Source: Micromonospora sp. WMMD1128 (GTDB lineage Bacteria > Actinomycetota > Actinomycetes > Mycobacteriales > Micromonosporaceae). From it: a DNA stretch of 64,000 nt. The notes beneath the pieces are model-generated. The model worked only from the letters and a program-made list of their open reading frames with translations. It had not been told where the DNA came from and ran no database searches. The stretch covers positions 5,668,001 through 5,732,000 of the forward strand of contig NZ_CP114902.1 of assembly GCF_027497235.1 (NCBI RefSeq). The letters run 5' to 3'. Shown piece by piece: positions 3,097 through 32,492 of this stretch; the stretch's first letter is position 1, and every line of letters starts with the position of its first letter. The position numbers and the translations under genes are program-made.

Positions 3097-3100
3097 ACAC

Positions 3101-12659: not shown

Positions 12660-12675
12660 TCGGCGTCAACGCGGC

Positions 12676-13323: not shown

Positions 13324-13345
13324 TGCTGCTCCTCCGCAGATCGTT

Positions 13346-13375
13346 TGTGTAGCGCCAACTATTTATAGCAGATGG
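13346..13375. promoter_or_regulatory. Shared promoter/operator region of azoR and marR-type gene
   Basis: This is the only AT-rich spot in the divergent gap. It contains the near-palindrome CTATTTATAG (13359-13368), which in the azoR direction reads TATAAA, a good -10 box. A MarR dimer bound here would cover both promoters. The exact operator is not resolved. Confidence 0.4.
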
Positions 13376-13405
13376 ATGTTCCCTGCTCCGCGTAGACTGG
13401 GTCAC

Positions 13406-13867: not shown

Positions 13868-13872
13868 CGGTG

Positions 13873-13925
13873 TAAGGAGGGGCCCCCGCTTAACGCCTGC
13901 GGTAGAGCAGGGGGCCCCGCTTAAC
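13873..13925. repeat. Repeated-type intergenic hairpin
   Basis: The segment carries two related arms, GGGGCCCCC (13879-13887) and GGGGGCCCC (13910-13918), each followed by the same CGCTTAA, with a 22-nt loop. I recall closely similar TAAGGAGGGGCCCCCGCTTAAC sequences between many genes of Micromonospora-type genomes. It can act as a terminator between the convergent marR and potassium-channel genes. Only one copy is seen in this window. Confidence 0.6.
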
Positions 13926-13943
13926 AGCTCGTCGTCGACCGGG

Positions 13944-14957
13944 TCAGGCCGTGGTGGTCGCCTGGGGGCGGTCGTCGCGGACGTGGACCAGCATGTCGCC
14001 GGTCTCGATCAGCGCGCCGGCGCGGTCACTCAACGTGATCACCTTGCCCCGGCGGACCAGCGCGATCACCAGCGAATCCAGCTCACGCGGTGAACGTCCC
14101 ACCTCGCTCCGCTCGGCCGAACGCATCGCCAGCGCCATGCCCTGGCCCGGAGTGAGCAGATCCTCCACCACGTCGATGAGCGGCGGAGCCGAGGTGGAGA
14201 GGCCGAGCAGCCGGCCCGCGGTCGCGGACGAGACGATCACGTGGTGCGCACCGCTCTGCTTGAGCAGCGGCGCGTTCTCCGCCTCCCGGACCGCCGCGAT
14301 GATCCGGACCTGACCGGCGGTGAGCTGCCGGACGGTCAACGCCACGAGCACCGAGGCGTCGTCGCTGTCGGTCGCGATGATGACCGCCTTGGCGGTGCGG
14401 ACGTGCGCCTCCTCCAGCACGGAGGAGCGGGTCGCCGAGCCCTCGATCGTCACCAGCCCGTTCGAGGTGGCCTGCCGCAACGCCGCCGCGCTCCGCTCGA
14501 CCACCACGATCCTGGCCTTGTCCGCCCCGTTCTCCAGCAGCGCGGAGACCGCGCTCCGCCCCTTGGTGCCGTAGCCGCAGATGATGACGTGGTCCTTCAC
14601 GGTTCTCCTCCACCGCGACAGGCGACGGCCGGTCCGGTACTGCTCGGTCAGGACTTCCAGGGTGGTGCCGACCAGGATGATCAGGAAGAGCACCCGGGCG
14701 GGGGTGACGAACAGGACGTTCACCAGGCGCGCCGAGGGGCTGGCCGGGGCGATGTCGCCGTACCCGGTGGTGGAGAGCGAGACCACCACGTAGTAGAAGC
14801 AGTCGAGCAGGGTGAGCCCGTCGCCGTTGGTGTCGCGGTAGCCGTCGCGGTCGAGCCAGACCACGAAAACCGTGGCGAGGACCAACCCGAGCGCGGCGAG
14901 CAGGCGCAGGCTCAGCGCGCTCAGCGGCCCCCGCCGTTGCGCGGGAAAATGGATCAC
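13944..14957 (-). CDS. Potassium channel with cytosolic RCK (TrkA-N) domain
   Basis: The 337-residue protein has a two-helix pore module: helix 1 LRLLAALGLVLATVFVVWL, pore helix with selectivity filter TTGYGD at residues 63-68, helix 2 VLFVTPARVLFLIILVGTTLEVL. The RCK Rossmann domain follows (VIICGYGTKGRSAV near residue 125) and then an RCK-C domain (LDSLVIALVRRGKVITLSDRAGALIETGDMLVHVR). It is a ligand-gated K+ channel of the MthK/Kch type. It is monocistronic and convergent with the MarR-type gene. Confidence 0.92.
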   Translation of the reverse strand: MIHFPAQRRGPLSALSLRLLAALGLVLATVFVVWLDRDGYRDTNGDGLTLLDCFYYVVVSLSTTGYGDIAPASPSARLVNVLFVTPARVLFLIILVGTTLEVLTEQYRTGRRLSRWRRTVKDHVIICGYGTKGRSAVSALLENGADKARIVVVERSAAALRQATSNGLVTIEGSATRSSVLEEAHVRTAKAVIIATDSDDASVLVALTVRQLTAGQVRIIAAVREAENAPLLKQSGAHHVIVSSATAGRLLGLSTSAPPLIDVVEDLLTPGQGMALAMRSAERSEVGRSPRELDSLVIALVRRGKVITLSDRAGALIETGDMLVHVRDDRPQATTTA

Positions 14958-15209
14958 CGTCGGTCCCGCTCCGCCACCGTCGCCTGCACGCCCTCAAGAT
15001 AGCGGGTACGCCCCGAGCCGGCCCGGCGGGCGGGGAACCGATCCCGCTGCACGAGCGGCGCGGGACCTCGACACTCTGCCGGGAGAATCCCGACTGCCGC
15101 CGATCCGCGACCGGCCGGCCGGTGCCGGGGGCGCCGACCGGGCCGGTCCGTGTCGCCGGGACGGGGCATGATGGTGGCGTCGGCGAACGGCGACCGCGAG
15201 GAGGCCGGC

Positions 15210-15821
15210 ATGTCGTTGCTGCGACGGGTGATCGGTGGGGTGCTGCGGCGGATCCGCCTGCGTCAGGGCCGCACGCTGCGCGAGGTGGCGCAGGCGGCAG
15301 GAGTCTCCCTGCCCTATCTCTCCGAGGTCGAACGTGGCCGCAAGGAAGCCTCCTCCGAGGTGCTGGCCGCGATCTGCCGGGCGCTCGGCATCCACCTCGC
15401 GGACCTGCTGGAGGAGGCGCGGGACGAGCTGCGCCGGGAGCGGCCCACGCCGGTCGGCTCCGGCGTCCCGCCGGCCCGGCTCGACCGGGTGCCCGCCGCC
15501 CGCGGCGGCCCGCACCTCCGGGTCGGCCCGCCCCGACTGCACGTCACCCGCCGCCCGGCCGGCCCGCACCCGGCCCGCCCGCACATTCCGGTGCCGGCGT
15601 ACGCCGCCCGCCCGGTCCACCCGACCCCGCTGCTCGGCGGCGCGCTGCGCCAGGTGGCTCCGCCCCCCATGCCGCTCGGCCACGGCACGCCGGAGCTGCT
15701 CGGCACCGGCACCCGGATCTGGCTGATCCCGACGCCGGCCGCCCGCCCGCGCCCGCGTACCTCACCGGCACTCGCCCGGCGACGCGTCTGGGCGGCCCGA
15801 CGACGCCCGGTCACGGCGTAG
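15210..15821 (+). CDS. PopR/ClgR-like Cro/CI-type transcriptional regulator of Clp protease
   Basis: The 203-residue protein begins with an HTH domain (residues ~15-70: RLRQGRTLREVAQAAGVSLPYLSEVERGRKEASSEVLAAICRALG) that closely matches ClgR/PopR. The rest is a Pro/Arg/His-rich unstructured tail. ATG 15210 has GAGGAGGCC just upstream. PopR and ClgR are activators of clp genes and are themselves degraded by ClpP in Streptomyces (known for that family). Here the target is evident: a clpP gene follows 413 bp downstream, with a PopR-type palindrome at 16126-16142 in front of it. The long tail is larger than in the M. tuberculosis ClgR that I remember. Confidence 0.82.
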   Translation: MSLLRRVIGGVLRRIRLRQGRTLREVAQAAGVSLPYLSEVERGRKEASSEVLAAICRALGIHLADLLEEARDELRRERPTPVGSGVPPARLDRVPAARGGPHLRVGPPRLHVTRRPAGPHPARPHIPVPAYAARPVHPTPLLGGALRQVAPPPMPLGHGTPELLGTGTRIWLIPTPAARPRPRTSPALARRRVWAARRRPVTA

Positions 15822-16863: not shown

Positions 16864-16873
16864 CCCGTCTCGG

Positions 16874-18679
16874 TCAGGGGTAGCTGATCACCGGGCTGGT
16901 GCCGTACGAGCCGACGACCGGGGTGCCGACGTCGTTGATGGTGCGCTCGATCCCGCCGCTGCCGTCCAGGAACACCGTGATCGCGTCGTGGAACCGCACC
17001 CCGGCCCGGCGCGGCGCCTCGATCGCCCGGTCGCAGCGGATGTCCTCCCCCTGGTTGAAGTAGGCGTAGACGCCCAGACCCCACGCCTCGTGCGTGCGGA
17101 CGTGGTTGGCCACCTTGTACGACGCCCAGCCGTTGCCGGTCGGGCTGCGCCATGCCGCCTGGCTCGGCGGGTCGTAGGGCAGCTCGCTCTGGTAGAACAC
17201 GGTCCGGCCGCGCTCGCCGTTCCAGATGGTCTGCCAACGCTGGTAGTGCTCGACGAAGAGCCCGTACGCGGTCACGTCGTCACCGTTGACCACCACGCCG
17301 GTGCCGGCGGTGTTGACGGTCCAGCCGATGGTGCCCGGGTTGCCGTGGTCGCCGCGCCACGCCCAGATGTTGTCGATGAGCGTGTGCCGGCTGTTGATCA
17401 CCAGGCTGGTCTCCGCCCGCCCGGCGTAGGGGCCGCCGATGCGGAAGAAGACGTCCTGCAACGAGATCGGGTTGCCGGCGTGCGACCGGTGGCAGTGCCG
17501 CCCGCCGACCTCGACCAGCACGTCGGACTCGACCGGCCCGGCGTCGACGAGCACGCCGGCGATCCGTACCCCGTCCACGTCCTCGATCCGCAGGGCCGCG
17601 TCGCCAGTGGTCGGCGCGAGACTGGGCATGCCGAGGCCGAGCACGACGGTGTTCGGGCGGCGGACCCGCAGCGCCCGGTCCAACCGGTAGACGCCGGGCG
17701 TGAGCAGCAGGTGCCGGCCCCGGGCCAGCTCGGCGTTGATCCGCTTCGCCGAGTCGGTGGGCCGGGCGATGAAGAAGTCGGTGAGCGGCAGCGAGGGCGT
17801 CGGCGCGCCGCTGGCGGCCCAGGTGGTGCCCGCGGTGTCGCGGCGCAGGCGGGGCACCGCCACCCGCCAGCGGCCCGCGCCGTCGACGAAGAGGTACGGC
17901 TTCTCCCGGGTCACCGGGCTGGTCGGCAGCGTCGTGTACGGCGGGTCGGGGAAACCCTGGGCGGGCGCGCCGACCACCCCGGAGAAGACCTGGTTCCACA
18001 CGCCGTTGGTCCACTCGCCACCGAGTTCGCTGTCCCGGGTGAGCCACTGCTGCTGGGACCCGTTGATGGTGACGTCGTCCACCTTGGAGTCGGCGATGTA
18101 GCCGCCGCTGGAGTAGCCGCCGTTGCCGGGTTCCAGCCAGAGGACGCCCTTGATGTGGACCCGGCGCATCGGCGACGCCTGGGAGACGGCCCACTGGTTC
18201 GACCAGTCGGTCGGGGTGACGGCGAGGTTCTCCGCCGAGCGCCAGAAGTTGGTGAGTGCGGAGATCCCGGCCGGGGAGTTCGGGTCGGGTTGGCCGATCA
18301 CCCGGACCGCGCCGTGGATCTCCACGTCGTCCGGGTGGGCGCCGAGACCGGCCACCGTCGTGTAGTAGCCGAGCCGGGCGTCCACCTCGTAGCGGCCGGG
18401 CTTGAACAGCACGGCGTACCGGTCGAGGCCCATCTCGTTGCGTTCCTGAGCGGCGAAGATCCGGTCCAGCGTGGACTGGATCTCCGCGACCGGCGTGCTC
18501 GGGTCGTAGACGAAGACGTTCGGGCCGAAGTCGGGCTCGTGGGCCGGTCGGGCGGGGCGCGCGGCCGGGGACGCGACGGCGGCGCCGGCCGGGAGGCCGA
18601 GTGCGGTGAGCGAGGTGAGGGAGGCCGCGGAGGCGGTGAGCGTGAGAAAGCGGCGGCGGGAGGGGTCAGGTGATCGCAT
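16874..18679 (-). CDS. Tat-exported beta-helix (GH55/pectate-lyase-like) secreted protein
   Basis: The 601-residue protein has a twin-arginine signal (SRRRFLTLTASAASLTSLTALG, cleavage after AVASPAA). It then starts FGPNVFVYDPSTPVAEIQSTLDRIFAAQE, the opening I associate with a family of large secreted actinomycete proteins often labelled coagulation factor 5/8-type or adenylyl cyclase in annotation. Later blocks such as LFKPGRYEV, SQQQWLTRDSE, GRHLLLTPGVYRLDRALRVRRPNTVVLGLG and TGVVVNGDDVTAYGLFVEH read as a right-handed parallel beta-helix. It is likely to act on, or bind, extracellular polysaccharide; I see no proven catalytic residues and consider the adenylyl cyclase label unfounded. Confidence 0.75.
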   Translation of the reverse strand: MRSPDPSRRRFLTLTASAASLTSLTALGLPAGAAVASPAARPARPAHEPDFGPNVFVYDPSTPVAEIQSTLDRIFAAQERNEMGLDRYAVLFKPGRYEVDARLGYYTTVAGLGAHPDDVEIHGAVRVIGQPDPNSPAGISALTNFWRSAENLAVTPTDWSNQWAVSQASPMRRVHIKGVLWLEPGNGGYSSGGYIADSKVDDVTINGSQQQWLTRDSELGGEWTNGVWNQVFSGVVGAPAQGFPDPPYTTLPTSPVTREKPYLFVDGAGRWRVAVPRLRRDTAGTTWAASGAPTPSLPLTDFFIARPTDSAKRINAELARGRHLLLTPGVYRLDRALRVRRPNTVVLGLGMPSLAPTTGDAALRIEDVDGVRIAGVLVDAGPVESDVLVEVGGRHCHRSHAGNPISLQDVFFRIGGPYAGRAETSLVINSRHTLIDNIWAWRGDHGNPGTIGWTVNTAGTGVVVNGDDVTAYGLFVEHYQRWQTIWNGERGRTVFYQSELPYDPPSQAAWRSPTGNGWASYKVANHVRTHEAWGLGVYAYFNQGEDIRCDRAIEAPRRAGVRFHDAITVFLDGSGGIERTINDVGTPVVGSYGTSPVISYP

Positions 18680-21710: not shown

Positions 21711-21749
21711 GCCTCTTGTGACTCCCGGTCGAATCGGAGGAGTAGATCA

Positions 21750-23675
21750 TTGAAGATCTGTTTCGTCGGAAAATATCCTCCGATCGAGGGCGGAGTCAGC
21801 GCACAGAACTACTGGGCCGCGGCAGCGCTGGCCTCACGCGGTCACGAAGTCTATGTCGTGACCAATTCAAATGAGGTCGAGGAACGTTTCCGGCAACGTC
21901 TCGACGGTGCCGAGGCGGCAGATTACGAACCGCAATTCCCGGCCACCGGCGGCGCGGTCAGAGTGATTCGTCCGGAGCCGATGACGCCACGTCGAATGGC
22001 GCACATCCCGTCGAGCAACCCGTTCGTGTCGAAGCTGGCCGGCCTGGCCGCCGCAACCATCCGCGAAAATGGCTGCGAACTCATCGTCGCCTACTACTTC
22101 GAGCCGTACGTGGTAGCCGGTCACCTGGCGTCGACGTTCACCGGCACGCCGATGATGGTCGAGCACGCCGGCAGCGACCTCGATCGGCTCATGCGCGTGC
22201 CCGAGCTGGCAACGGTCTACAAGGAGATCCTGCGGTCGGCGGCCACCGTGGTGACCAAACCGTCTCTGGTGCACCGCTTCCTCGGCATGGGGGTGGCCCG
22301 CGAGGCGCTGCGGTTCGGGCCTCCGTACCCGCTACCGACGTCGGCGTTCTCACCCGAGGCCGTACCCCTGGACCCCGGGGAGATCGCCGCGGCCTCGATC
22401 GACGAGTTCGGCTCCCGGTTCGATCCGGCGTTGCCGACGATCGGCATGTACGGCAAGCCCGGCGACCGGAAGGGCACCTTCGACCTGATCGCCGCGCTGG
22501 CTGTCCTCGCCGGTCGCGGGCTCCGGTTCAACGCGCTCTTCCTCAGCGGGCGGTCCCAGTTGGACCGGATGCGCGCCGACCTCCGCGCCGCCGGCCTCGC
22601 CGACCGGACCACGATTCTCGACTTCGTGCCGCCGTGGCGGGTCGGCCGCTTCATTCGCACCTGCGACGCCGTGTGCTTCCTGGAGCGGGACTTCCCGATC
22701 GGCATCCACGGCCCGGTGGTACCGCGGGAGGTGCTCGCCTGCGGCGTCTGCCTGGTGCTCTCCGGGGAGATCCTCGAAAAGCAGTCGTACGCACACCGCC
22801 TCACCGACCAGGGCAACGTTCTGGTCGTCACCGACCCCAAGGAACACGAGAAGCTGGCGGCCCAGCTCGAGATCGTCGTTCGGGACCCGGCGGGGGCCGC
22901 CCGCATCGGCGCGACCGGTGGTGCGCTCGGTGCCGACTTCGACAGCTTCGAGACCTTCGCCGATGCCTGGGAGTCGCTTGTCGACATCGAGTCGTCGGCT
23001 CGGCGGGTTCCCGCACCCCGCACCACGGCCGACCTGCTGGTCGAATTCACGCCGAAACTGGCCGAGTTGTTCGGGCCGGCGTGGCCGGGCGTCGTCGCCG
23101 AGTTCGAGGCGGCGTGCGACATCGACGCCGCTTCCGGCGACTTCGCCGCCGCGGAGGCGTTCTGTCAGCATCTGACCCGACGACTCGACCAAGCCGCGCT
23201 GGCCGCAGGCGTCAGTCCCGCTTACCTGGCCGACGCGCTGCGCTTCCAACAGGCCCGGCTCTGGGCCAGTCAGGACGGTCCACACGACCGGGACGGGCAC
23301 GCCGGCATCCGGTTCTCCCCGGCGCTGCTGCGGCAGATGGCACCCCGTCGCGCCGGCACGGTCCGGGTGGAGTCGTTCGACCACAACGTCACCGACCTGT
23401 TCTGTCAGCCGACGGGCCCGGTCGGCGTCAGGACCACGCAGCCGGGTGAGCGGAGTGTCGTCTGCTTCGTCCGCCGACCGAACCTCGACCACCGCGAGCT
23501 GCGGCTCAACGCCGCCACCTATCGGCTGCTCGACCTCTGCGACGGCCACCGCACCGTCGGTGACCTGGTGGCCGCGTTGGCTCCAGCCGCGGAGGCCGAC
23601 GTTCTCCGGGCCCTCGTCGACCTCCGCCGAGAGGGCGTCGTGGTGCTGGAGGACGCCGCCCAGGGCACGCCCTGA
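21750..23675 (+). CDS. GT-B glycosyltransferase with C-terminal PqqD-like domain (RiPP cluster)
   Basis: The 641-residue protein starts at TTG 21750, with GGAGGAG 7 bases upstream; the first codons MKICFVGKYPPIEGGVSAQ form the GT4-type N-terminal motif. The C-terminal nucleotide-sugar half shows PTIGMYGKPGDRKGTFDLI, DFVPPWRVGRFIRTCDAVCF and GPVVPREVLACGVCLVLS in place of the family ExFGxxxxEAMACG element. A helical middle (~residues 430-560) follows. The last ~65 residues (RELRLNAATYRLLDLCDGH, then RTVGDLVAALAPAAEADVL and a final strand) read as a PqqD-like winged helix, the fold that binds leader peptides in RiPP systems. It probably glycosylates the Cys/Ser/Thr-rich precursor encoded next; this is inference. 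Confidence 0.85.
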   Translation: MKICFVGKYPPIEGGVSAQNYWAAAALASRGHEVYVVTNSNEVEERFRQRLDGAEAADYEPQFPATGGAVRVIRPEPMTPRRMAHIPSSNPFVSKLAGLAAATIRENGCELIVAYYFEPYVVAGHLASTFTGTPMMVEHAGSDLDRLMRVPELATVYKEILRSAATVVTKPSLVHRFLGMGVAREALRFGPPYPLPTSAFSPEAVPLDPGEIAAASIDEFGSRFDPALPTIGMYGKPGDRKGTFDLIAALAVLAGRGLRFNALFLSGRSQLDRMRADLRAAGLADRTTILDFVPPWRVGRFIRTCDAVCFLERDFPIGIHGPVVPREVLACGVCLVLSGEILEKQSYAHRLTDQGNVLVVTDPKEHEKLAAQLEIVVRDPAGAARIGATGGALGADFDSFETFADAWESLVDIESSARRVPAPRTTADLLVEFTPKLAELFGPAWPGVVAEFEAACDIDAASGDFAAAEAFCQHLTRRLDQAALAAGVSPAYLADALRFQQARLWASQDGPHDRDGHAGIRFSPALLRQMAPRRAGTVRVESFDHNVTDLFCQPTGPVGVRTTQPGERSVVCFVRRPNLDHRELRLNAATYRLLDLCDGHRTVGDLVAALAPAAEADVLRALVDLRREGVVVLEDAAQGTP

Positions 23676-23679
23676 TACC

Positions 23680-23704
23680 CCGGCGGCGCGGCCCGCGCCG
23701 CCGG
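23680..23704 (+). promoter_or_regulatory. Intercistronic hairpin before the precursor gene
   Basis: A perfect 11-bp stem (CCGGCGGCGCG, loop GCC, CGCGCCGCCGG) begins 4 bp after the glycosyltransferase stop and ends 33 bp before the precursor ATG. There is no T-run. In RiPP operons such hairpins commonly stabilise the precursor mRNA or reduce upstream transcripts; here it separates a rarely initiated TTG gene from a precursor with a strong ribosome site. Confidence 0.6.
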
Positions 23705-23737
23705 TCGGCAACTGCCAGCGGGAGGGAGGTGAATCAC

Positions 23738-23869
23738 ATGGAGACCTTGGAGAACATCGTGTTCGAGATGGAGGAGCTTTCGCTCAGCAACGTTTCGGAC
23801 ATCGAGGCCCCCGGTTGCGCGAGCTGCTCGAGCTGCGGTGGGTGCACGGGCTGCGGCATGGAGAACTGA
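23738..23869 (+). CDS. RiPP precursor peptide, five Cys at i,i+3 spacing (43 aa)
   Basis: The ATG at 23738 is preceded by GGGAGGGAGGTG, the strongest ribosome site of the cluster. Residues 1-25 form an acidic leader (METLENIVFEMEELSLSNV, then SDIEAP). The core from Gly26 contains Cys27, Cys30, Cys33, Cys36 and Cys39, that is CASCSSCGGCTGC, with Ser and Gly/Thr as spacers, then GMEN. Leader and core types (hydrophobic-acidic helix, then Cys-rich tail) are those of modified peptides, and the next gene encodes a DUF692/MNIO enzyme, a family that oxidises Cys residues of such precursors. It resembles thiazolyl-peptide precursors superficially, but no cyclodehydratase gene is near. Confidence 0.85.
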   Translation: METLENIVFEMEELSLSNVSDIEAPGCASCSSCGGCTGCGMEN

Positions 23870-23949
23870 CCAGCCCTCCCGCCCACGCCGCGCAGGCCCT
23901 AGGCCGGCACCGCAGCCCGCACCCTCACAAGCTTCCACAGGAGGATGCA

Positions 23950-24789
23950 ATGAGCAAGGCTCTACCACGGCTCGGCGCCGGCCTGGGGTACCGCACGGCG
24001 CTACATCAGGACATCGTCGCCAACGCCGACCGGATCGACTTTCTCGAAGTCATCTCCGACCAATATCTGTACGCACCGCCGGAGAAGCTCCTGCGATTGT
24101 TGGAGCTTGGCGACGCGTTCCCCCTCATTCCCCACGGGGTCGGCCTGTCCGTCGGTACGGCGGCTCCCCTCGACGGCGATTACCTCGATCGGCTGGCGCA
24201 ATTCGTCGAGGCGACGCGTGGCCACTGGTTCAGCGACCATCTGAGCTTCACCAGAACGCCCGATGTCGATGTCGAACAACTCACCCCCGTGTGGTTCACG
24301 GAGGAGAGCCTCGAAGCGGTCTGCCGCAACGTGCGGCAATTGAAGGCGCGAATCCCGGAACCGCCGTTCCTCCTGGAGAACGTCACCTACTACTTCCCGA
24401 TCCCGGACAACGACCTCAGCGAGGCCGAGTTCATCACGCGGGTGCTCGAGGAAACCGACACCGGCCTGTTGGTCGACGTGAACAATGTCTGGATCAACTC
24501 AGTAAACCTGGGCTTCGACCCGTACGAATTCCTGAATTCGATTCCACTGGACCGGGTGGTGCAGATGCACATCGCCGGCGGGGTCGAGTTGGCCGGAATG
24601 CTCGTCGACACTCACAGCAGCGCCGTCAACGAGCAGGTGTGGGCGCTGGCCGCCCACGTCGTGGAACGGGCGCCGGTCAAGGCGATCCTGCTCGAATGGG
24701 ATTCCGACTGGCCGGAGTTCGCCGAACTGCTGGACCACCTCGACCGGGCTCGCGACCTGCTGCCCGCCCCGGCGAAAGCCGGGTCATGA
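23950..24789 (+). CDS. DUF692 multinuclear non-haem iron oxidative enzyme (MNIO), RiPP-modifying
   Basis: The 279-residue TIM-barrel protein begins at ATG 23950 after AGGAGG. It carries the full metal-ligand set of the MbnB/TglH family: HGVGLSVG (His62), FSDHLSF (Asp96, His97), LLENVTYY (Glu143, Asn144), LVDVNNVWIN (Asp176, Asn178), MHIAGG (His207), DTHSSAV (Asp220, His222) and LLEWDSDWP (Glu249). Known members use two or three iron ions and O2 to convert Cys to oxazolone/thioamide, thiooxazole or related groups, or to excise its beta-carbon. The start of the partner gene overlaps its stop (ATGA), as in known MNIO-partner pairs. The chemistry on this precursor is unknown. Confidence 0.93.
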   Translation: MSKALPRLGAGLGYRTALHQDIVANADRIDFLEVISDQYLYAPPEKLLRLLELGDAFPLIPHGVGLSVGTAAPLDGDYLDRLAQFVEATRGHWFSDHLSFTRTPDVDVEQLTPVWFTEESLEAVCRNVRQLKARIPEPPFLLENVTYYFPIPDNDLSEAEFITRVLEETDTGLLVDVNNVWINSVNLGFDPYEFLNSIPLDRVVQMHIAGGVELAGMLVDTHSSAVNEQVWALAAHVVERAPVKAILLEWDSDWPEFAELLDHLDRARDLLPAPAKAGS

Positions 24790-25616
24790 GCCTGCTCGAC
24801 ATGCAACGGGCGTTCAGCCGGCTGCTCACCGATCCCCACTTCGAACGGGAGTTCTTCGGCGAGGACGCGGACGCGCCATCAGGGTACGACCTGACCGAGC
24901 GGGAGCTGGACAGCTTGCGCCGGATGGACCGGAAGCGGCTCCGGCTGCACGCCGGCAACCTGGCTCACGCCCGGATGGGCCTGGCGCTCAAGTCGGCTCC
25001 GCTCTCCGCGCTGGTCCTGCACGGTCAACTCGATCGGCACCTGGTGCGCTTCTGCCGGGAGTACCCGCCGGTTCCGGCCGCGGAGAGCGCTGTCATCCTG
25101 GCCACGACACGGCTGTGCGACTTCGCCGAGCGGCTCTTCGCCGACGGGGAGCTGCGGCCCGCGTACGCCTGGGACCTGCTCCGTTACGAGAAGCACCTAC
25201 TGGTGCAGGGATTCGGCGCCGCATCCTGTCACGACGCCGCCGAGTTCGCCCGTCGGCCGGCGCCGCCGGAGCTGCTCGGCGACTGTGTCCCGATCACCGG
25301 CGCGCACGTGCTCGTCGACCACTTCCAGCATGACCTGACCGCCCTGCTGCCCAGGTTGCAGGCCGGCGAGGTGCCCGAGGACGCCCCGCCGCTCGCGGAG
25401 CCGATGCGGATGATGTTCGTGAAGCGGCCGTTGAAGGCGCTCGTCCAGACCTGCCGGCTCAACGCCGGGATGGAGTCGGTGTGGCTCCGGTGCGACGGCA
25501 CCCGCACGGTGGACGACATCGCGTCCCGCTACCCCGACCCGCAACCGGTCGTGACGGCGCTCCGCGCTTTGAACCGCTTCGGGGCGATCGCCTTCACCGC
25601 CGAAAGGACGTGTTGA
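24786..25616 (+). CDS. MNIO partner protein with N-terminal LigA-like and C-terminal PqqD-like domains
   Basis: The 276-residue protein overlaps the MNIO gene by four bases, the position of MbnC, TglI or HvfC in known clusters. Residues 1-100 (LLDMQRAFSRLLTDPHFERE, YDLTERELDSLRRMDRKRLR) look like the helical LigA/DUF2063-type module seen in several partner proteins. The C-terminal ~60 residues (RLNAGMESVWLRCDGTRTV, DDIASRYPDPQPVVTALRA) resemble a PqqD-like winged helix and share the pattern RLNA-x-CDG-RTV-D with the end of the glycosyltransferase. It probably binds the leader peptide and presents the core to the MNIO enzyme. Confidence 0.75.
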   Translation: MSLLDMQRAFSRLLTDPHFEREFFGEDADAPSGYDLTERELDSLRRMDRKRLRLHAGNLAHARMGLALKSAPLSALVLHGQLDRHLVRFCREYPPVPAAESAVILATTRLCDFAERLFADGELRPAYAWDLLRYEKHLLVQGFGAASCHDAAEFARRPAPPELLGDCVPITGAHVLVDHFQHDLTALLPRLQAGEVPEDAPPLAEPMRMMFVKRPLKALVQTCRLNAGMESVWLRCDGTRTVDDIASRYPDPQPVVTALRALNRFGAIAFTAERTC

Positions 25617-25618
25617 GG

Positions 25619-27370
25619 ATGTGCGGCATCACCGGGATCTTCGGTACGGCCGACCACTCGGCCCTGGCGGCGATGACGGACTCGTTGCGTCACCGCGGCC
25701 CCGATGACGAAGGCCGGTACCTCGGCAAGCTCACGGGCATGGGCCACCGGCGTCTGAGCATCATCGGGATCGACAACGGCGCCCAGCCGATCCGCGGCGA
25801 CCGACGCGACGTGTACGTGGTGGCCAACTGCGAGATCTACAACTACCGGCAGCTCCGTGACGACCTGCGGCGGCGGGGACACCACTTCGGCACGGACTCG
25901 GACGCCGAGGTCATCGTGCACCTCTACGAGGAGTACGGCGACCGGTGCGTCGAGCATCTACAGGGGATGTTCGCGTTCGCGGTCGCTGACGGGGACCGCC
26001 TGCTGCTGGCCCGGGACCGCTTCGGTATCAAGCCGCTGCACTACGCCGAGGTGGGTGCGGGCCTGCTGTTCGCGTCGGAGGTCAAGGCGCTGCTACAGAG
26101 CCGGCTGCTGACCCCGCAGATCGATGAGGAAGCGCTGGCCGACACGGCCGTGTTCGGTCATCCCGCCGGTCCCGGCACCTTGCTGCGGGGCGTGGTGAGC
26201 TTGCCACCCGGCCACACGCTCAGCGCGGTTCTAACGGACGACCAAGTTGTCACTTCCGTCACCCGCTACCACACGCTGCCGGAGGCGGAAGCCGACCCGA
26301 TGCCGTTCGCGGAGGCCGCCGCCGACCTGACGGAACTGCTGCGGGCCACCGTCCGGTCGCACCTGATGGCCGAGGTGGAGATCGGGATCACTCTCTCCGG
26401 CGGCCTCGACTCGACGATCCTCGCGCGGCTCATGCGCGAACTGCACGACGGTCCGATCCGCGCCTACACGATCGGGGACCACGCGGACCATCCCGACGTG
26501 GTCCAGGCCCGGCGGCTGGCCGCGCGACTCGGCCTGAACCACCATGTGTCGATCCTGACGTTCCAGGATTTCGTCGCGACCATCCCGCCCTACCTCACCG
26601 CCGCCGAGCAGCCCGCCGGTCTCGGCGGCATCGCGCTCAACTTCCTGTGCCGGCGGATCGGCGAGGACGTCAAGGTGTGCCTCAACGGGGAAGGCGCGGA
26701 CGAGGTTTTCGGCGGCTACGGCGAGTACATCAACCGGTCGTTCCGGACCCGGCGGATGGTCGACCGTCTCGCCGCTCTCGAAGCGTCGGGTCGTCCGGTC
26801 AGCCGACGGGGGCGGGAATACCTCGATTCGCTCACCGCGGACCAGCCGTTCCCGCACTACCTGCGGAAGCTGTTCGCGGAGAACATGCGGGAGCAGCTCA
26901 CCCGGGACCACCTCGAACTCCTGGACGCTTCGTCGATGGCGGCGAGCCTGGAGATGCGGGTGCCGTTCCTCGACCACCACGTGGTCGAGTTCGCGTTTCG
27001 TCAACCGCTGGCCCACCGGGTCGACTGGGAGTTGGGCATCACCAAGCGACTGCTCAAGCAGGCCGTCCTGAGGACCTGGGGTGACGAGGTCGATCTGGTG
27101 GGCAGTGTGCTGCGACGCAAGATCGGCGCGCCGACCTCGGTCCTCGGGCACCGGGAGCGGTTCATCCGCCTCTGCGAACAGGTGCTGCCGGCGGACTATC
27201 TCCGCGACGACGAGTACGGCGCGTACTTCGAACAGAAGTCCGACCTGCTGGTCTTCAACCTCTACCAGGAGATCTTCGTCCGATGCCGCGGCGTGCTTCC
27301 CGACGGGTTCACCATGCTGGACTTCATGGCGCAGCAGGCTCGCCGGCCGGCCCTGTCCGTGGCCGGCTGA
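25619..27370 (+). CDS. Asparagine synthase (glutamine-hydrolysing)-like amidotransferase in RiPP cluster
   Basis: The 583-residue protein has both AsnB halves. Cys2 (MCGITGIFG) is the glutaminase nucleophile and RHRGPDDEG follows. The synthase domain has the ATP-pyrophosphatase motif SGGLDS at residues 260-265, then LNGEGADEVFGGYGEY and SLEMRVPFLDHHVVEFA. One oddity: the usual NGEIYNY reads NCEIYNY (Cys71 in the place of a conserved Gly). Lasso-peptide cyclases lack the glutaminase half, so this is not one. In the cluster it could amidate an acidic side chain or the C-terminus of the peptide (core ends GMEN) or supply Asn; the first is my preferred guess. It starts 2 bases after the partner gene. 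Confidence 0.9.
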   Translation: MCGITGIFGTADHSALAAMTDSLRHRGPDDEGRYLGKLTGMGHRRLSIIGIDNGAQPIRGDRRDVYVVANCEIYNYRQLRDDLRRRGHHFGTDSDAEVIVHLYEEYGDRCVEHLQGMFAFAVADGDRLLLARDRFGIKPLHYAEVGAGLLFASEVKALLQSRLLTPQIDEEALADTAVFGHPAGPGTLLRGVVSLPPGHTLSAVLTDDQVVTSVTRYHTLPEAEADPMPFAEAAADLTELLRATVRSHLMAEVEIGITLSGGLDSTILARLMRELHDGPIRAYTIGDHADHPDVVQARRLAARLGLNHHVSILTFQDFVATIPPYLTAAEQPAGLGGIALNFLCRRIGEDVKVCLNGEGADEVFGGYGEYINRSFRTRRMVDRLAALEASGRPVSRRGREYLDSLTADQPFPHYLRKLFAENMREQLTRDHLELLDASSMAASLEMRVPFLDHHVVEFAFRQPLAHRVDWELGITKRLLKQAVLRTWGDEVDLVGSVLRRKIGAPTSVLGHRERFIRLCEQVLPADYLRDDEYGAYFEQKSDLLVFNLYQEIFVRCRGVLPDGFTMLDFMAQQARRPALSVAG

Positions 27371-27381
27371 GCTCGCCCGGC

Positions 27382-29094
27382 ATGCCAACCGACGCCGCGC
27401 ACCAGCGGGACGCCCTGCTCCGCGTCCTGGGCCTGCTGCGCCGGCGGTGGTGGGCGGCGGCGACCGCGGTGGCGCTCGGTGTCGTGGTCATCCTGCTGAC
27501 CAACGCGCTGCCGCTGGTGATCCGGCGCATCATCGACCACGGCCTGTTGCCCGACGACAGCGACGCCACGACCGCCGGGCTCGCCCTGCTGCTCGGGCTC
27601 GCCGCCCTCCGCTGGCTCGCGGACGTGGTACGCCGAGAGGTCAGCGGCCAGGTCGGGCTGCGTCTGGAGGCGGATCTACGGGCCCGGCTCTTCGGGCATC
27701 TGCTCTCGCTGGACGCCGGTTGGCACGGCCGCACGGAGGCCGGGCGGGTGCTCTCCCTCGTCGGCTCCGACCTGCGAATCGTTCGCGCCTTCGTCTCCTA
27801 CTCCGCCCTGTTCATCATCCTCAACACGCTGACCGCCGCCGCCGCCCTGATACAGATCTGGCTCCTGTCCTGGCCGGTCGGGGTGGCCGCCACCGCTGTC
27901 CTGCCGCTGTTCGGGCTGGTCACCATCGGCTACGGGCGTCGGACGTTCGCCGCTTCCGCCGGGCTTCAGGAACGGGTGGCCGCCCTCACCACGCACGCCG
28001 AGGAGAACGCGGCCGGGATGCGCGTCATCAAGGGCCTCGGCCGCGAGAACGAGGAAGTTGAGGCGTTCACTCGCCGGTCGGCCGAGGTCCGTGACCACAA
28101 TGTCGCCCTGTCCGCGCTCCAGGCCCGTTACCTGCCGTGGACGATCGGCCTACCCGAGGTCGGCCTGGTGCTCATCGTATGGTTCGGCGGCTACCTGACG
28201 ATCCGGGGATCGCTGACCGTGGGCACACTCGTGGCGCTGAGCACCTACATGGCTCTGCTGGTGTGGCCGGTCAGCTCCATGGTCGGGCTGTTCGGCTCCG
28301 CCCGGCGGGCCGCCGCCAGCGCCGCTCGGGTCTACGCGGTTCTGGACGAGCCCTTGACGGTGGCTGACCGTCCCGGTGCGGTCGACCTGCCCCGAGCGTC
28401 CGGTGGCGCCTCCGTCACCTTCGACGACCTCTGCTTCCGGTACCCCGGCGGGACCTGGCCCGGCCTGCGCCGGATCCGACTGCACGTGGCCGCAGGTGAA
28501 CACGTGACAATCGAGGGCGTCGGTGGTTCCGGCAAGTCGGCGCTGGCCGGGCTGCTGGTGCGACTCTGGCTGCCGGACTCCGGCCGCCTGATGGCCGACG
28601 GCATCGACGTCGCCGACCTCACGCTCGGCTCGGTACGCGCCGCGGTAGGTTACGTGCCACAGGACGCCGTCCTGTTCAACGGCACCGTCCGCGACAACCT
28701 CCTCGTCGGTCACCCCACCGCGACCGCGGCCCAACTCGACCGGGCGCTGCGCCTGGCCGCCGCCGACGAGTTGGTGCGGACGTTGCCCGAGGGATTGCAG
28801 ACCGTCGTCGGTGACCACGGACATCTGCTGTCCGGCGGGCAGCGCCAGCGGCTGGCCCTGGCCCGCGCAGTCCTGCCAGAACCCCGGGTCCTCGTCCTCG
28901 ACGACGCACTGACCCAAATCGACACGGAGACCAGGCAACGCGTTCGCCACCGGCTCGATGAACTGGCCGGCGCGGTCACCATCCTGCACCTGACCCGACC
29001 CGGAGTTGGGGGACGACCCCACGGGCGGGTGGTCACCCTGACCGCCGACGGTGTGCTGCGCGAGACCACCGGCGCGGGCGGTGGTCACCGGTGA
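27382..29094 (+). CDS. ABC exporter half with degenerate ATPase site (RiPP export)
   Basis: The 570-residue protein consists of six membrane helices (~residues 15-300) and an ATPase domain. Walker A is GVGGSGKSA, the Q-loop is YVPQDAVLFNG, and the signature is a full LSGGQRQRLALARA. Walker B reads VLVLDDALTQID, with Asp where the catalytic Glu should be, and the H-loop His is absent (LHLTRP). This half therefore contributes a good signature but a poor catalytic site, the typical degenerate partner of a heterodimeric exporter. It starts 11 bp after asnB and overlaps the next ABC gene by four bases. No peptidase C39 domain is present. Confidence 0.9.
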   Translation: MPTDAAHQRDALLRVLGLLRRRWWAAATAVALGVVVILLTNALPLVIRRIIDHGLLPDDSDATTAGLALLLGLAALRWLADVVRREVSGQVGLRLEADLRARLFGHLLSLDAGWHGRTEAGRVLSLVGSDLRIVRAFVSYSALFIILNTLTAAAALIQIWLLSWPVGVAATAVLPLFGLVTIGYGRRTFAASAGLQERVAALTTHAEENAAGMRVIKGLGRENEEVEAFTRRSAEVRDHNVALSALQARYLPWTIGLPEVGLVLIVWFGGYLTIRGSLTVGTLVALSTYMALLVWPVSSMVGLFGSARRAAASAARVYAVLDEPLTVADRPGAVDLPRASGGASVTFDDLCFRYPGGTWPGLRRIRLHVAAGEHVTIEGVGGSGKSALAGLLVRLWLPDSGRLMADGIDVADLTLGSVRAAVGYVPQDAVLFNGTVRDNLLVGHPTATAAQLDRALRLAAADELVRTLPEGLQTVVGDHGHLLSGGQRQRLALARAVLPEPRVLVLDDALTQIDTETRQRVRHRLDELAGAVTILHLTRPGVGGRPHGRVVTLTADGVLRETTGAGGGHR

Positions 29095-30911
29095 CCGCGC
29101 GACGAGGTCGTGTGGTCGCGTTCCTGCGTCCGCTGCTCCGGACGCACCGGGGACCGGTCCTGCTCGGCCTCGGGGCTGCCATCCTCCAGACCGCTGCCGC
29201 GCTCACCATCCCGTACCTGATGAAGGTCGCCATCGACGACGGAATCCTGGTCGGGAACGTCACGGTGCTGTCCCTCGCGGCACTGGCCGGCGTCGTGCTG
29301 GCCGGCTTGGAGGTGCTCGCGGCCCGTACACAGATCCGCGCGGTGGCCCGTGCGGGGCACGGCATGCTCTCCAGCACTCGGGTCGCGCTCTTCGCGCACC
29401 TGCAACGGCTGCCGATGCAGTACCACGAACACAACCGTCCGGGGCGGCAGGTCGCCAGCCTGACCGCGGACATCGAAGCGATGAGTGGGTTGCTGACCCA
29501 GGGATTCGTCACCCTCTTCGTCAGTACGCTCACCCTCGCCGGTACGGCGGTCGTGCTCCTTCTGCTCGACCCCGGGCTGGCGGTCGCCTGCCTCGTCGTG
29601 ATGCCCGTGCTGGCACTGGCGACGAGATGGTTCCGCCGTCGGTCGGCGGTCGCCTGGCGACAGGTACGGGAGACCGCGACCGCAGTCACCGTCGAGTTGC
29701 AGCAGGCCCTGAGCGCCATCGCGGTCATCCAGGCGTTCCGCCACGAGCGGACGACACTCGACCGGTTCGCCGCGGCTGACGGCGAGGAGCGGCAGGCCAA
29801 AGCCGCCACGGTCCGCACGGCCGGGGTCTACTTCCCCACCCTCGACCTCTGCTCGGCCCTGGCCACCGTCGCCGTCCTCGCCATGGGGGCTCGTTCCGTC
29901 TCGGCCGAGGGGCTGGAGATCGGCACCCTCACCGCCTTCCTTCTCTACCTGCGGGGCTTCTTCAGTCCGATCTACGAGTTGTCCTCGGTGTACGACACCC
30001 TCCAGTCCGCCGTGGCGGGGGCCGAACGGGTCATCGACATCCTGGCGACACCGGTGACGGTGTCCGAACCGGCGTCGCCGGCGCGACTCCCGGACCCACA
30101 CGGCGCGGTCACCCTGTCCGACGTGACCTTCGCCTACCCCGACCACGACGGCCTCAGCGGACCGGACGTGCTGCACGACGTCGACCTGGCCGTTGCCGCG
30201 GGCAGCACCCTTGTCATCATCGGCCCCAGCGGCGCCGGCAAGTCCACGCTGGTGAAACTGATGCTGCGCTTCTACGACCCCCAGCGCGGGCGAGTCACCC
30301 TGGACGGGGTCGACGTGCGTCGACTTGCCCACTCGGACCTACGTCGCGCGATCGCCTACGTGCCGCAGGAGGGATACCTGTTCACCGGCTCCATCTCGGA
30401 CAACATCAGGATGGGCAACCCGACGGCCACCGACGACGAGATCGAGGCCGCCGCACGCACGCTTGGAGTCTGGTCAGTCCTGTCCACCACATCTGAGGGG
30501 CTCGACACACCCGTCGGGGTGCGTGGTACGGCTCTGTCCGCGAGCCAGCGCCAGGTGATCGCGATTTTGCGCGCGTGGATGGCGGACCCGACGGTGTTGA
30601 TCTGGGACGAGGCGACCAGCAGCCTGGATGTCGAGACCGACCAGAGGGTTCAGGACGCCACCCGCCTGCTCCGGACCGGGCGCACCATGATCGTCGTAAC
30701 GCACGACCTGCTCCGGAGCCTGGACGCCGACTCGGTAGCACTGGTGCGGAACGGGCGGGTGGTGGCGTACGGGACGCCTGCGGAACTGCTGGCCACGGAG
30801 CGCTGGCTGTCCGAGGGCATCCAGCGGCCGACCCTCGCGACCCACGGCCAGCCCGCCGCTTATGCCGAGGAACCGGTGCCGACGGTCGGCATCCGGACGG
30901 ACCTGAGTTGA
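29091..30911 (+). CDS. ABC exporter half with catalytically competent ATPase site (RiPP export)
   Basis: The 606-residue protein starts at GTG 29091 (GTGA overlap). It has six membrane helices, Walker A GPSGAGKST, Walker B VLIWDEATSSLD with the catalytic Glu, and an H-loop His (VVTHDLL). Its signature is LSASQ in place of LSGGQ. This is exactly complementary to the preceding half: catalytic Glu and His here, good signature there. The two should form one asymmetric TM287/288- or TmrAB-like exporter, most likely for the modified peptide. The C-terminal ~40 residues (ATHGQPAAYAEEPVPTVG) are an unusual extension. Confidence 0.9.
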   Translation: MTARRGRVVAFLRPLLRTHRGPVLLGLGAAILQTAAALTIPYLMKVAIDDGILVGNVTVLSLAALAGVVLAGLEVLAARTQIRAVARAGHGMLSSTRVALFAHLQRLPMQYHEHNRPGRQVASLTADIEAMSGLLTQGFVTLFVSTLTLAGTAVVLLLLDPGLAVACLVVMPVLALATRWFRRRSAVAWRQVRETATAVTVELQQALSAIAVIQAFRHERTTLDRFAAADGEERQAKAATVRTAGVYFPTLDLCSALATVAVLAMGARSVSAEGLEIGTLTAFLLYLRGFFSPIYELSSVYDTLQSAVAGAERVIDILATPVTVSEPASPARLPDPHGAVTLSDVTFAYPDHDGLSGPDVLHDVDLAVAAGSTLVIIGPSGAGKSTLVKLMLRFYDPQRGRVTLDGVDVRRLAHSDLRRAIAYVPQEGYLFTGSISDNIRMGNPTATDDEIEAAARTLGVWSVLSTTSEGLDTPVGVRGTALSASQRQVIAILRAWMADPTVLIWDEATSSLDVETDQRVQDATRLLRTGRTMIVVTHDLLRSLDADSVALVRNGRVVAYGTPAELLATERWLSEGIQRPTLATHGQPAAYAEEPVPTVGIRTDLS

Positions 30912-31031: not shown

Positions 31032-31107
31032 TGGTGCCCCCGGCAGGATTCGAACCTGCGACACACGGTTTAGGAAACCGATGCTCTATCCCCTGAGCTA
31101 CGAGGGC
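31032..31107 (-). tRNA. tRNA-Arg (anticodon CCT)
   Basis: Reading the minus strand, the cloverleaf has acceptor arms GCCCTCG and CGGGGGC, D-arm TAGCTCAGGGGATAGAGCA, anticodon loop TTTCCTAAA with anticodon CCT (reads AGG), T-arm GCAGGTTCGAATCCTGC, discriminator A and an encoded CCA (31032-31034). It is a rare-codon Arg tRNA; tRNA-Arg genes are frequent attachment sites, and this one stands at the end of the RiPP island, but no integrase is present. Confidence 0.95.
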
Positions 31108-31300: not shown

Positions 31301-32492
31301 TCAGGCTGCGGCGCGGATCGCTGGCGCCGGTCGGGTGAAGGTTTTGCGGTCGCGGATGAGTGCCCAGAGGACATCGACGCGTCGTCGGGCGAGGGCGAGT
31401 ATGGCTTGGCGGTGGTTTTTGCCTTCGGCGCGTTTCTTCTCGTAGTAGGCGCGCGAAGTGGGGCATTCTCTGGCGGCGGTGAAGGCGGCCATCCACAGAA
31501 TGTGGCGCAGTCTTCGGTGGTATCGGCGGGGCTGGCGATGGTTCCCGGAGACCGTTCCGGAGTCGCGAGAAACTGGGGCCAGGCCGGCGTGGGCGGCGAG
31601 TTTGGCGGGGCTGTCGTACTCGGTCATGCCGGCGGTGTGGACAAGCAGTTCGGCGGTGAGCAGGGGACCCATGCCGGGCAGGCTCCCGATGATCGGCGTC
31701 AAGGGGTGCTGGTCGAGTTGCTCGGCGATGAGGTCGTCGACGGCGGCGATGCGTTGTTCGATGGCGAGGATCTCGGTGGCCATCTGCCCGACGACCACGG
31801 CTGCGGCACGTTGGCCGGGCAGGGTGACGGTCTGCTGCCGGGCGGCGGCGACCATCGCCTCGGCCACCTGGACGGCGTTCTTGACGTGCCGCGGCGGAGC
31901 AGAGCGGTGATCCGGTCGACGCCGGCGTGCCGGATCGCGGCCGGTGTCTGCCAGCACGCGAGGACCATCATCGGGGCCTTGCGGTTCAGGTCCACGGCCC
32001 CCGTTCGAGGGCGGGGCTGATCCCGGTGAGGAGTTCCTGCAACCGGAACAGGGTGGCGACGCGCTGCCCGACGAGGTCCCCGCGGTAACCCGTCAAAACG
32101 GTTAGCTCGGCCAGGAGCCGGTCAGACGGTTCCAGGACGGGGATGTCGGGGCGCATACGGATCGTCTGTGCGATGACGACCGCGTCGCGGGCGTCGGTCT
32201 TGTTCTCTCCGGCGAACGCGGCGGCCATGTGGAACGCGACGGTGCCGGAGACATAGCGGACCTGCACCTGGCGGCGCCAGAGCAGGGTCAGCAGGAGAGC
32301 GGACAGGCCGGTGGTGACGTCGACTGCCCAGCAGACCGCACGGCCGTGTGTCGACACCTCGGCCATGACGGTGAGCAGTGAGGTCTCGTCGTTGGCTACT
32401 CGGCGGGAGTAGACGAGCCGGCCTTCGCCGTCGACGGCGGCGACGTGGTGGTGGGTCTTGCCGATGTCCACGCCGATTCACAGCTTCGCCAC
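31301..32492 (-). pseudogene. IS110-family transposase, broken by a stop codon and frameshifts
   Basis: In order on the minus strand: VAKL, then a TGA stop at 32478-32480 where IS110 proteins have Trp, then IGVDIGKTHHHVAAVDGEGRL with the first catalytic Asp and GENKTDARDAVVIAQTIRM of the DEDD domain. A frameshift near 31990 leads to NRKAPMMVLACWQTPAAIRHAG. A second near 31895 leads to NAVQVAEAMVAAARQQTVTL and the Tnp_20 domain with IIGSLPGMGPLLTAELLVH, and later RDSGTVSGNHRQPRRYHRR. At least three inactivating changes make it a dead copy. Ends of the element are not clear, as expected for a family without long inverted repeats. Confidence 0.88.

Follow-up and report, generated by a model that had tools for sequence, protein, structure and literature searches.

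A Micromonospora operon pairing an MNIO enzyme with a glycosyltransferase that carries a partner-like module: a candidate RiPP family

An operon of Micromonospora sp. WMMD1128 probably directs, as judged from its genes, the synthesis of a small Cys-rich peptide that would be oxidized by an iron enzyme, furnished with a sugar and an amide, and exported. On balance, we favor the view that it represents an undescribed MNIO RiPP family characterized by a CxGC precursor, an MNIO, a TglI-like partner, and a fusion of a GT4 glycosyltransferase (GT) to a partner-type module, which would act jointly as proposed below. The sequence itself shows which genes are present, that they are conserved as a unit, that the GT is homologous to the partner, and that the catalytic motifs are intact.

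Organization of the operon

Among the open reading frames of the window (the whole analyzed stretch of 64,000 nucleotides), seven genes on the positive strand make up the operon at positions 21750-30911.

21750..23675, + strand: GT4 glycosyltransferase with a C-terminal partner-like module that ends in a putative PqqD-like RRE, 641 aa; TTG start after GGAGGAG
23738..23869, + strand: precursor peptide, 43 aa; ATG start
23950..24789, + strand: MNIO (DUF692/PF05114), 279 aa; metal ligands and Asp251 as expected
24786..25616, + strand: MNIO partner, 276 aa, PME-type-2-like, with a helical N-terminal domain and an RRE; 4-nt overlap with the MNIO gene
25619..27370, + strand: glutamine-hydrolyzing AsnB-type amidotransferase, 583 aa; ATG start giving Met-Cys
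27382..29094, + strand: ABC exporter half 1 (ABC1); Walker B Glu replaced by Asp, motif read by eye
29091..30911, + strand: ABC exporter half 2 (ABC2); deviant signature LSASQ; 4-nt overlap with ABC1

The alignment of the window with a locus from a second Micromonospora, L035, runs from 21737 to 30813 at 82% identity, and no alignment of the two was found outside these positions in the stretches compared. We regard the operon as one unit because L035 aligns with the window over this interval only. The coordinates, the common strand, and the two 4-nt overlaps bear out an earlier sequence-only reading of this DNA, which had described seven same-direction genes with overlaps or small gaps. Its claim that the operon encodes no protease also stands, with neither ABC1 nor ABC2 matching the peptidase C39 family. 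A scan returned no sigma-70-type promoter site and fewer terminator-like sites than in shuffled sequences, results that say little in an actinobacterium. A tRNA was the sole Rfam match at gathering thresholds between 20000 and 34000. The host, a Micromonospora, is a soil bacterium.

The precursor peptide

The precursor divides into a leader, METLENIVFEMEELSLSNVSDIEA, and a core region, PGCASCSSCGGCTGCGMEN, with the leader/core border presumably lying at this junction. The window, P0121 (from L035), P0122, and P0124 share an identical core, APGCASCSSCGGCTGCGME, and the fourth database match, P0123 (from L003), keeps the Cys/Gly pattern alone. Between the window and L035, residues 25-42 differ in three codons, all synonymously, whereas residues 1-24 differ in nine codons, five of them non-synonymously; residue 43 is Asn in the window and Ala in L035. 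This synonymous codon pattern, together with the conservation, argues against a chance ORF, and the Cys-repeat precursor of 43 aa named in the sequence-only reading is kept in L035, P0122, and P0124.

The conserved part of the precursors is the Cys repeats and not the C-terminal residue, which varies (Asn, Ala, Asp, Met, or Arg). The window peptide ends in Glu-Asn, those of L035, P0122, and P0124 in Ala, and that of L003 in Asp; the precursors of AsnB-bearing loci end in GMEN, GMEA, VDGD, GCSM, and EVTR. The precursor had no Pfam match, and its core contains no Lys. Inspection by eye found neither a Sec signal nor a Lys-Cys or Cys-Lys motif. A thiopeptide was rejected, with the leader scoring 19.6 bits against the thiocillin model (cutoff, 25) and no cyclodehydratase among the seven genes.

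The MNIO and its partner

The MNIO matches PF05114 with 285 bits. All 12 ligand-motif columns checked are conserved in 116 or more of the 120 listed homologs, R15 in 113 and D251 in 118, in agreement with the earlier description of a DUF692/MNIO enzyme with all metal ligands. The iron-binding columns are those that we presume to bind iron on the alignment with 3bww, TglH, and MbnB. Asp251 is likely the catalytic base, a role placed by motif and following the base assignment of PMC12668002; the next residue is Ser in the window and mostly Gln in the 120 listed homologs. The same Asp is also present in an aligned MbnB, and MbnB makes other products, which counts against the favored reading. Asp220 and His222 are present and may correspond to the third-iron motif, an assignment made by position that is not certain, since the published motif is written HxD. 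The nearest NCBIfam MNIO models are BufB (241 bits; cutoff, 310) and HvfB (215 bits; cutoff, 360), and both scores fall below the cutoff.

The sole PDB matches of the predicted partner model below an E value of 0.001 were chain A of the TglHI complexes 8hci and 8hi7, which we take to be TglI, and no Pfam match to DUF2063 was found at an E value of 0.1. The excerpted text of PMC12452194 describes PME-type 2 proteins as having no DUF2063 signature, an NGO1945/TglI-like fold with an RRE, and a gene that follows the MNIO gene. The partner shows this combination, with the TglI-like fold being that of the model, which also sustains the earlier call of an MNIO partner gene.

A glycosyltransferase with its own partner-like module

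The GT matched PF13579 and PF00534 above cutoff, its catalytic-domain motifs are conserved in 6 aligned GTs, and its model matches GT4 structures of the GT-B fold, MshA, HepE, and BshA among them. Its C-terminal ~220 aa show homology to the MNIO partner (hhalign probability, 99.5%; E value, 6.7e-23, over 209 columns; input alignments, 6 and 5 sequences), a relationship that appears to be new here. Since this module is homologous to the TglI-like partner, the MNIO docking module would be present in the GT as a separate copy. Within it, the region matching PqqD PF05402 (23.8 bits; cutoff, 23.4) is homologous by hhalign to the RRE region of the partner. Residues 511-641 have a low-confidence model, with blocks at pLDDT 30-53 and a strand-helix order that fits a winged helix; because of this low confidence, the RRE of the GT rests on sequence homology. 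The RRE and partner-module homology supports the leader-binding GT proposed earlier, and the PqqD-like domain assigned to it would be just one part of the larger partner-homologous module. The fusion of a GT to a diverged partner copy suggests one way in which duplicating a docking module could bring a further enzyme to a shared leader.

The AsnB and the ABC exporter

The AsnB scored 387 bits against TIGR01536 (cutoff, 267), and its N-terminal Cys (Cys1) and SGGLDS and GEGADEVFGGY motifs are intact, as expected for the full AsnB that had been reported. Three AsnB paralogs elsewhere in the genome score higher, and on this ground a housekeeping AsnB was set aside. A lasso cyclase was likewise rejected (168 bits against NF033535; cutoff, 525; no lasso B1 or B2 among the seven genes).

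ABC1 and ABC2 each contain ABC_membrane and ABC_tran domains. As read by eye, Walker B of ABC1 is VLVLDD, with Asp for the catalytic Glu, and the signature of ABC2 is LSASQRQ. The two proteins are predicted to form a heterodimeric exporter, and the split of deviant motifs between them matches the dedicated asymmetric exporter of the sequence-only reading.

Distribution of the gene set

The GT, MNIO, partner, and CxGC precursors occur together in the window, L035, L003 (an acidobacterial MAG), L060 (an acidobacterial-group genome), and L061 (an actinobacterium); these five are all the loci where both GT and MNIO were found. At least three gene orders of the GT-MNIO core exist across them. An AsnB is encoded in four of the five, spanning two phyla, and was not found in L060, which has 11 candidate precursors. 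Inspection of MNIO neighborhoods, the check suggested with the earlier reading, therefore yielded precursor, GT, and MNIO in 5/5 GT-MNIO loci and AsnB in 4/5. The L003 cluster contains a daptide-type M50 protease (NF041824, 208 bits, below the cutoff of 300).

A precursor-ORF screen covered 18 named loci, 5 kb on each side of the MNIO gene on the same strand, leaving out L004, L068, and other short MNIO loci from genome surveys. Eleven of the 13 GT-less MNIO loci screened had no CxGC-type ORF, and the other two had one Arg-rich, chance-like ORF each. The window also had one chance-like ORF, inside ABC2 (29350-29463). By exact longest-contig match, 15 of 120 listed GT homologs were paired with a listed MNIO homolog, as opposed to a mean of 0.4 and a maximum of 4 in 2000 jittered controls; the lists hold 120 of 233 GT and 120 of 1581 MNIO homologs. 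When the 41 listed MNIO homologs on contigs of ≥8 kb were matched in this way, only 10 paired with a listed GT.

Few assembled genomes carry the cassette. Of 201 genomes, 2 (the query's own and G085) encode an MNIO with ≥60% identity. At that level of identity, no genome other than the query's own had one among 394 of the class (E ≤ 1e-55), 396 of the phylum of G579 (E ≤ 1e-60), 149 of the family of G425, and 148 of the class of G947, and none of the 35 genomes of the family of G471 had one. The GT profile at E ≤ 1e-70 matched 2 of 396 and 1 of 267 genomes, G1248 among them, with scoring limited to 3-4 candidates per genome at most in the matches listed. G947 has two such GTs and was absent from the matches of a GT-profile search; it may lie outside the sample. 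A scan of genome contigs gave two loci, one of which, L004 (MNIO, 35%), had no GT match.

In an MNIO tree of 132 leaves, from which five listed homologs shorter than 255 aa were left out, a cluster with support of 0.92 joins L060 and L061 to five acidobacterial MNIOs from GT-less loci. The other 18 GT-bearing MNIOs (15 by longest-contig match only, plus those of the window, L035, and L003) fall in a 110-leaf group (support, 0.50) and so do not stand out as a clade of their own. In this phylogeny, the GT-bearing MNIOs are not one clade.

Proposed pathway and alternatives

We infer each chemical step, the order of the steps, and the role of the product, in metal binding or as an antibacterial, from the gene set. 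The leader helix (FxxEEL) would be bound by the partner RRE, presenting the Cys repeats to the MNIO, which would oxidize Cys; the likeliest reaction is the four-electron one that yields 5-thiooxazole, as in MNIOs with the same active-site Asp. Hydroxylation or another reaction at Cys is possible, because the MNIO scores below the BufB and HvfB cutoffs and proven thiooxazole systems have a PME-1 rather than a PME-2-like partner such as this one. Through its partner-like module, the GT would take up the same leader and glycosylate the core at the Cys/thiooxazole sulfur or at Ser/Thr. As an ammonia transferase that depends on Gln, the AsnB would amidate a carboxylate, with the one at the C terminus the simplest candidate. 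Such C-terminal amidation is probable by analogy with TsrC, ScdTA, and PesC, cited as precedents from the excerpted text of PMC13060819. The second precursor of L061 has no Asp or Glu after the first core Cys, so if it is a substrate, the C terminus would be the common acceptor. A protease encoded outside the operon would remove the leader, and the ABC pair would export the product. A bolder version, in which the docking-module GT glycosylates MNIO thiooxazoles on the CxGC repeats (S-glycosyl thiooxazoles) and the C terminus becomes an amide or nitrile, would give a sugar-capped metal-binding or antibiotic peptide of Actinomycetota and Acidobacteriota and a new RiPP class; we hold it to be speculative and unlikely as a whole.

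The conserved Cys repeats bear directly on a nitrilobacillin-like pathway, in which the MNIO hydroxylates near the C terminus, the AS-like enzyme makes a C-terminal amide or nitrile, the Cys residues stay as thiols that bind metal, and the GT is accessory. An MNIO and an AS-like enzyme have been proven to act on a RiPP precursor in the pes system (excerpted text of PMC13060819), and the window precursor ends in Glu-Asn. However, conservation sits in the repeats and not in the C-terminal residue, which is Ala in L035, P0122, and P0124 and Asp in L003; the precursors of AsnB-bearing loci have no R(V/T)DN motif, and the operon has no MNIO-like pseudo-enzyme. PesH, moreover, is said in the same excerpts to be without the third-iron motif, for which Asp220/His222 are uncertain counterparts here. 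We judge such a pathway unlikely. A decorated Cu- or Zn-binding metallophore of the captophorin/bufferin type, exported as a metal scavenger or buffer, seems rather unlikely: the nearest NCBIfam models, the Cys-rich core, and the conserved likely catalytic Asp fit it, but the partner is not of the DUF2063/PME-1 type by Pfam, the precursor has no Sec signal or Lys-Cys or Cys-Lys motif by eye, and no metal-responsive gene was apparent in family searches of the seven genes.

A peptide substrate for the AsnB or the GT is a prediction, and either or both might serve other ends beside a small MNIO RiPP locus, the AsnB supplying asparagine and the GT making a glycolipid. Consistent with this are the AsnB not found in L060 and a same-clade GT of 440 aa without the partner module in L068 (G1248), where the search of the short contig (3.9 kb) found neither an MNIO nor a partner nor an AsnB. 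Yet the operon GT carries an MNIO-partner-type module and stays with the MNIO although the gene order changes, three further AsnBs in the genome score higher, and AsnB recurs in 4/5 loci of two phyla; we find this reading quite improbable and prefer the joint modification of the peptide.

Relation to known systems

New peptide chemistry continues to emerge from MNIO pathways, and the family would offer a short, testable enzyme set with clear precursors. PEARL/LanB-like proteins and a C-terminal Cys are features of the TglHI/pearlin (3-thiaglutamate) system. The partner model is nearest to chain A of 8hci/8hi7 from that system, but the operon has no PEARL/LanB-like protein, its precursor has no C-terminal Cys, and TglH has Gln where the window MNIO has Asp251 in the alignment. 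PF00535 is presumably of GT2 type. The excerpted text of PMC12710340 names this family for the RRE-glycosyltransferase fusions noted by RRE-Finder in a RiPP context, whereas here a GT4 enzyme is fused to a whole MNIO-partner-type module, beside an MNIO.

Captophorins, bufferins, and HvfABCD (5-thiooxazole; excerpted text of PMC12668002 and PMC12452194) share with the operon the nearest MNIO by HMM score, Arg15, the likely catalytic Asp, and a Cys-rich substrate. Their partner is PME-1 (DUF2063) rather than PME-2-like, and the residue after the base is Phe or Asp rather than Ser; the operon adds the GT, AsnB, and ABC pair, and no Sec signal was seen in its precursor. The precursor fits none of the DUF2282, Lys-Cys, and Cys-Lys groups given in the PMC12668002 excerpts.

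Distantly related bacteria share the GT-MNIO core, for which no description as a family seems to exist. No precedent for a GT or sugar step tied to an MNIO was found in the open-licence papers searched; the GT-MNIO combination may already have been counted among the small MNIO clusters of PMC12452194. The label "apparently undescribed" given to the cluster earlier thus holds, within that literature, for the GT-MNIO combination and not for the pairing of an MNIO with an AsnB-type enzyme. The accompanying claim that no MNIO pathway includes an AsnB is outdated, as nitrilobacillins (pes cluster, Peribacillus) combine the MNIO PesH, a partner, and the AS-like PesC on a RiPP precursor (PMC13060819, 2026 preprint). 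By the excerpted text of that preprint, their gene list has no GT, and they possess a C-terminal R(V/T)DN, the pseudo-MNIO PesX, and M16 peptidases, which the operon does not share; an HExxH oxygenase occurs in about 75% of their clusters, and no single residue explains nitrilation. The 26 similar clusters are said there to be confined to Bacillus-related genera, and the operon AsnB is a further AS-like enzyme beside an MNIO, outside the Bacillus group.

A conserved seven-gene cassette

The seven genes proposed by the sequence-only reading were all found at the positions it had given, on one strand, separated by gaps of 62, 80, 2, and 11 nt and by two 4-nt overlaps. Family scans identified GT4 domains and a PqqD-like end in the glycosyltransferase (GT), matched the MNIO to PF05114, placed AsnB above its curated cut-off, and detected no C39 match in either half of the ABC exporter. 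By eye, the catalytic Glu of Walker B is replaced by Asp in ABC1, and the ABC signature of ABC2 is deviant. This combination usually indicates a heterodimer in which one site is degenerate.

The same seven genes occur in a second Micromonospora genome (G085, locus L035). When positions 12-42 kb of the window were aligned at the DNA level against the 20 kb of L035, a single block was obtained, 21737-30813, with 82% identity; this closely fixes the limits of the unit. The operon is a real, conserved RiPP cassette. The WMMD1128 genome is a single 6.8-Mb contig, and two features follow the operon:

31032-31107, - strand: tRNA-Arg(CCT), ~120 bp beyond the operon end
31301-32471, - strand: IS110-family transposase, two ORFs, next after the tRNA

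This region is possibly an insertion hot spot.

Between the window and L035 precursors, all codon changes in residues 25-42 (codons 26, 29, and 40) are synonymous, and 5 of the 9 changes in residues 1-24 alter the amino acid. The same core is kept in two metagenomic precursors. CxGC-type repeats are present in the screened precursors, and an acidic FxxEEL-like leader is common to the family only in part. The acidobacterial leader (L003, 6989-7150) weakly matches the ammosamide/lymphostin RiPP leader model (21.3 bits of 30).

Related loci and known pathways

An MNIO scan of genome contigs, genome searches, and a screen yielded the following gene rows:

L003 (acidobacterial MAG; scan): GT, daptide-like M50 protease, precursor, MNIO, partner, AsnB, 2OG-Fe(II) oxygenase
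L061 (actinobacterium; genome searches): two precursors, AsnB, partner, MNIO, GT, second AsnB and methyltransferase in a single frame
L060 (acidobacterial-group genome; genome searches): GT, seven precursors in tandem, partner, MNIO, another GT, four further precursor candidates from the screen

The L003 MNIO is 62% identical to that of the window; the protease of this locus scores below its model's cut-off. The second AsnB and the methyltransferase of L061 form one open frame of 1091 aa (12062-15337). No AsnB match was found within 19.9 kb of L060. In the screen, a small sample, CxGC-type precursors were found in all five loci with both GT and MNIO; 11 of the 13 GT-less MNIO loci had none, and the other two had one Arg-rich, chance-like ORF each.

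Homologue lists comprised the best 120 of 1581 MNIO matches and the best 120 of at least 233 GT matches. As an independent line of evidence, the longest contig of 15 of the 120 listed GTs equaled in size that of a listed MNIO, as opposed to an average of 0.4 and a maximum of 4 in 2000 jittered sets, equal size being an indication rather than proof of one shared contig. Contigs of at least 8 kb carried 41 of the listed MNIOs, and 31 of these had no equal-size counterpart among the best 120 GTs. Names among the listed GTs include Micromonospora, Nocardioides, Sphaerisporangium, Nonomuraea, Sorangium, Acidobacteriota, and Chloroflexota.

More distant MNIOs were also observed within the genus. One in G046 (L036, 9840-10673; 46% identical) adjoins an ABC exporter, and a possible precursor ending in CGVSQSSNVQCSNPMCA lies ~6 kb away (16868-17011). 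The WMMD1128 genome itself encodes a second MNIO (L066, C1:1713907-1714683), 37% identical to that of the operon; many same-genus genomes carry one MNIO that is about as distant, whatever the kinship among them.

In the open-licence literature, "MNIO" and "glycosyltransferase" were co-mentioned in three papers: in PMC13174530 only in the title of a reference, in PMC12710340 in its references and where fusions of an RRE to PF00535 are discussed, and in a paper on insects. The main text of a 2025 survey (PMC12452194), searched without its Figure 5b of Pfam names per small cluster, contains no match to glycosyl, asparagine synth, ABC transporter, or PqqD. The combination of an asparagine-synthetase-like enzyme with an MNIO has since been described (PMC13060819). 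Thus, the cassette, initially read as apparently undescribed, is less isolated than supposed; it is a new variation on MNIO pathways.

The MNIO and its partner

The MNIO has the ligands expected of it, and these hardly vary across the 120 listed homologues. Work on FonB (PMC12668002) ties two residues to thiooxazole catalysis and Cys selection, with Asp249 as the base. Placed by motif rather than with the FonB sequence, Asp249 corresponds to Asp251 here (kept in 118 of the 120 listed homologues) and Arg15 to Arg15 (113 of 120), whereas FonB sites 16 and 250 differ, being Thr16 and Ser252 (mostly Gln among the listed homologues) under the same placement. In an alignment, TglH has Gln at the base position and an MbnB has Asp, as in the window, so this residue is not diagnostic of thiooxazole makers. 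Our best guess, to which we give roughly even chances, is that the MNIO would form thiooxazole in a new Cys context.

The only PDB matches of the partner model below E 0.001 were chain A of two TglHI complexes. The partner N-terminus (24801-24962) weakly resembles Os1348/Frankia NHLP peptide models (32.7 bits of 40), as does the L060 partner (18.2 bits), suggesting that these models may describe partner-like domains.

AsnB

The Met-Cys start, SGGLDS, and GEGADEVFGGY of AsnB are all intact; judged by these motifs, ammonia transfer from Gln should be expected, unlike in ring-closing relatives. A Glu-Tyr pair tested in PMC13060819 would be present here if it corresponds to the DEVFGGY residues, as spacing suggests. 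In the second precursor of L061, no acidic residue follows the first core Cys; therefore, if this precursor is a substrate, the C terminus would be the only acceptor common to AsnB-bearing loci. Amide and nitrile products cannot be distinguished from sequence alone.

The glycosyltransferase and its fused module

The N-terminal part of the GT was predicted to adopt a GT-B fold, with MshA, sucrose-phosphate synthase, GlgM, HepE, and BshA among the best matches (TM-scores of ~0.4 of the whole query). All six aligned GTs share the motifs ERDFP--IH-P-V--E and YGK-G--KG without change. The last ~220 aa show homology to the MNIO partner, the product of the third gene downstream: profile comparison gave 99.5% probability over 209 columns, and the partner as tblastn query matched the GTs of the window, L035, and L003. 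GT and partner each match ApyI weakly (26.2 and 22.5 bits of 200), and the module region was poorly modelled. The simplest reading is that the MNIO partner was duplicated and one copy became fused to the GT. This fusion is the most distinctive part of the cassette. It may have been gained later, since one member of the GT's catalytic clade, encoded on the 3.9-kb contig L068, has no module. This stand-alone GT (1485-2807) adjoins a 166-aa protein (2838-3338) with a Cys-rich end (CDQCGNYCAQTC), possibly a pair of GT and Cys-peptide that operates without an MNIO.
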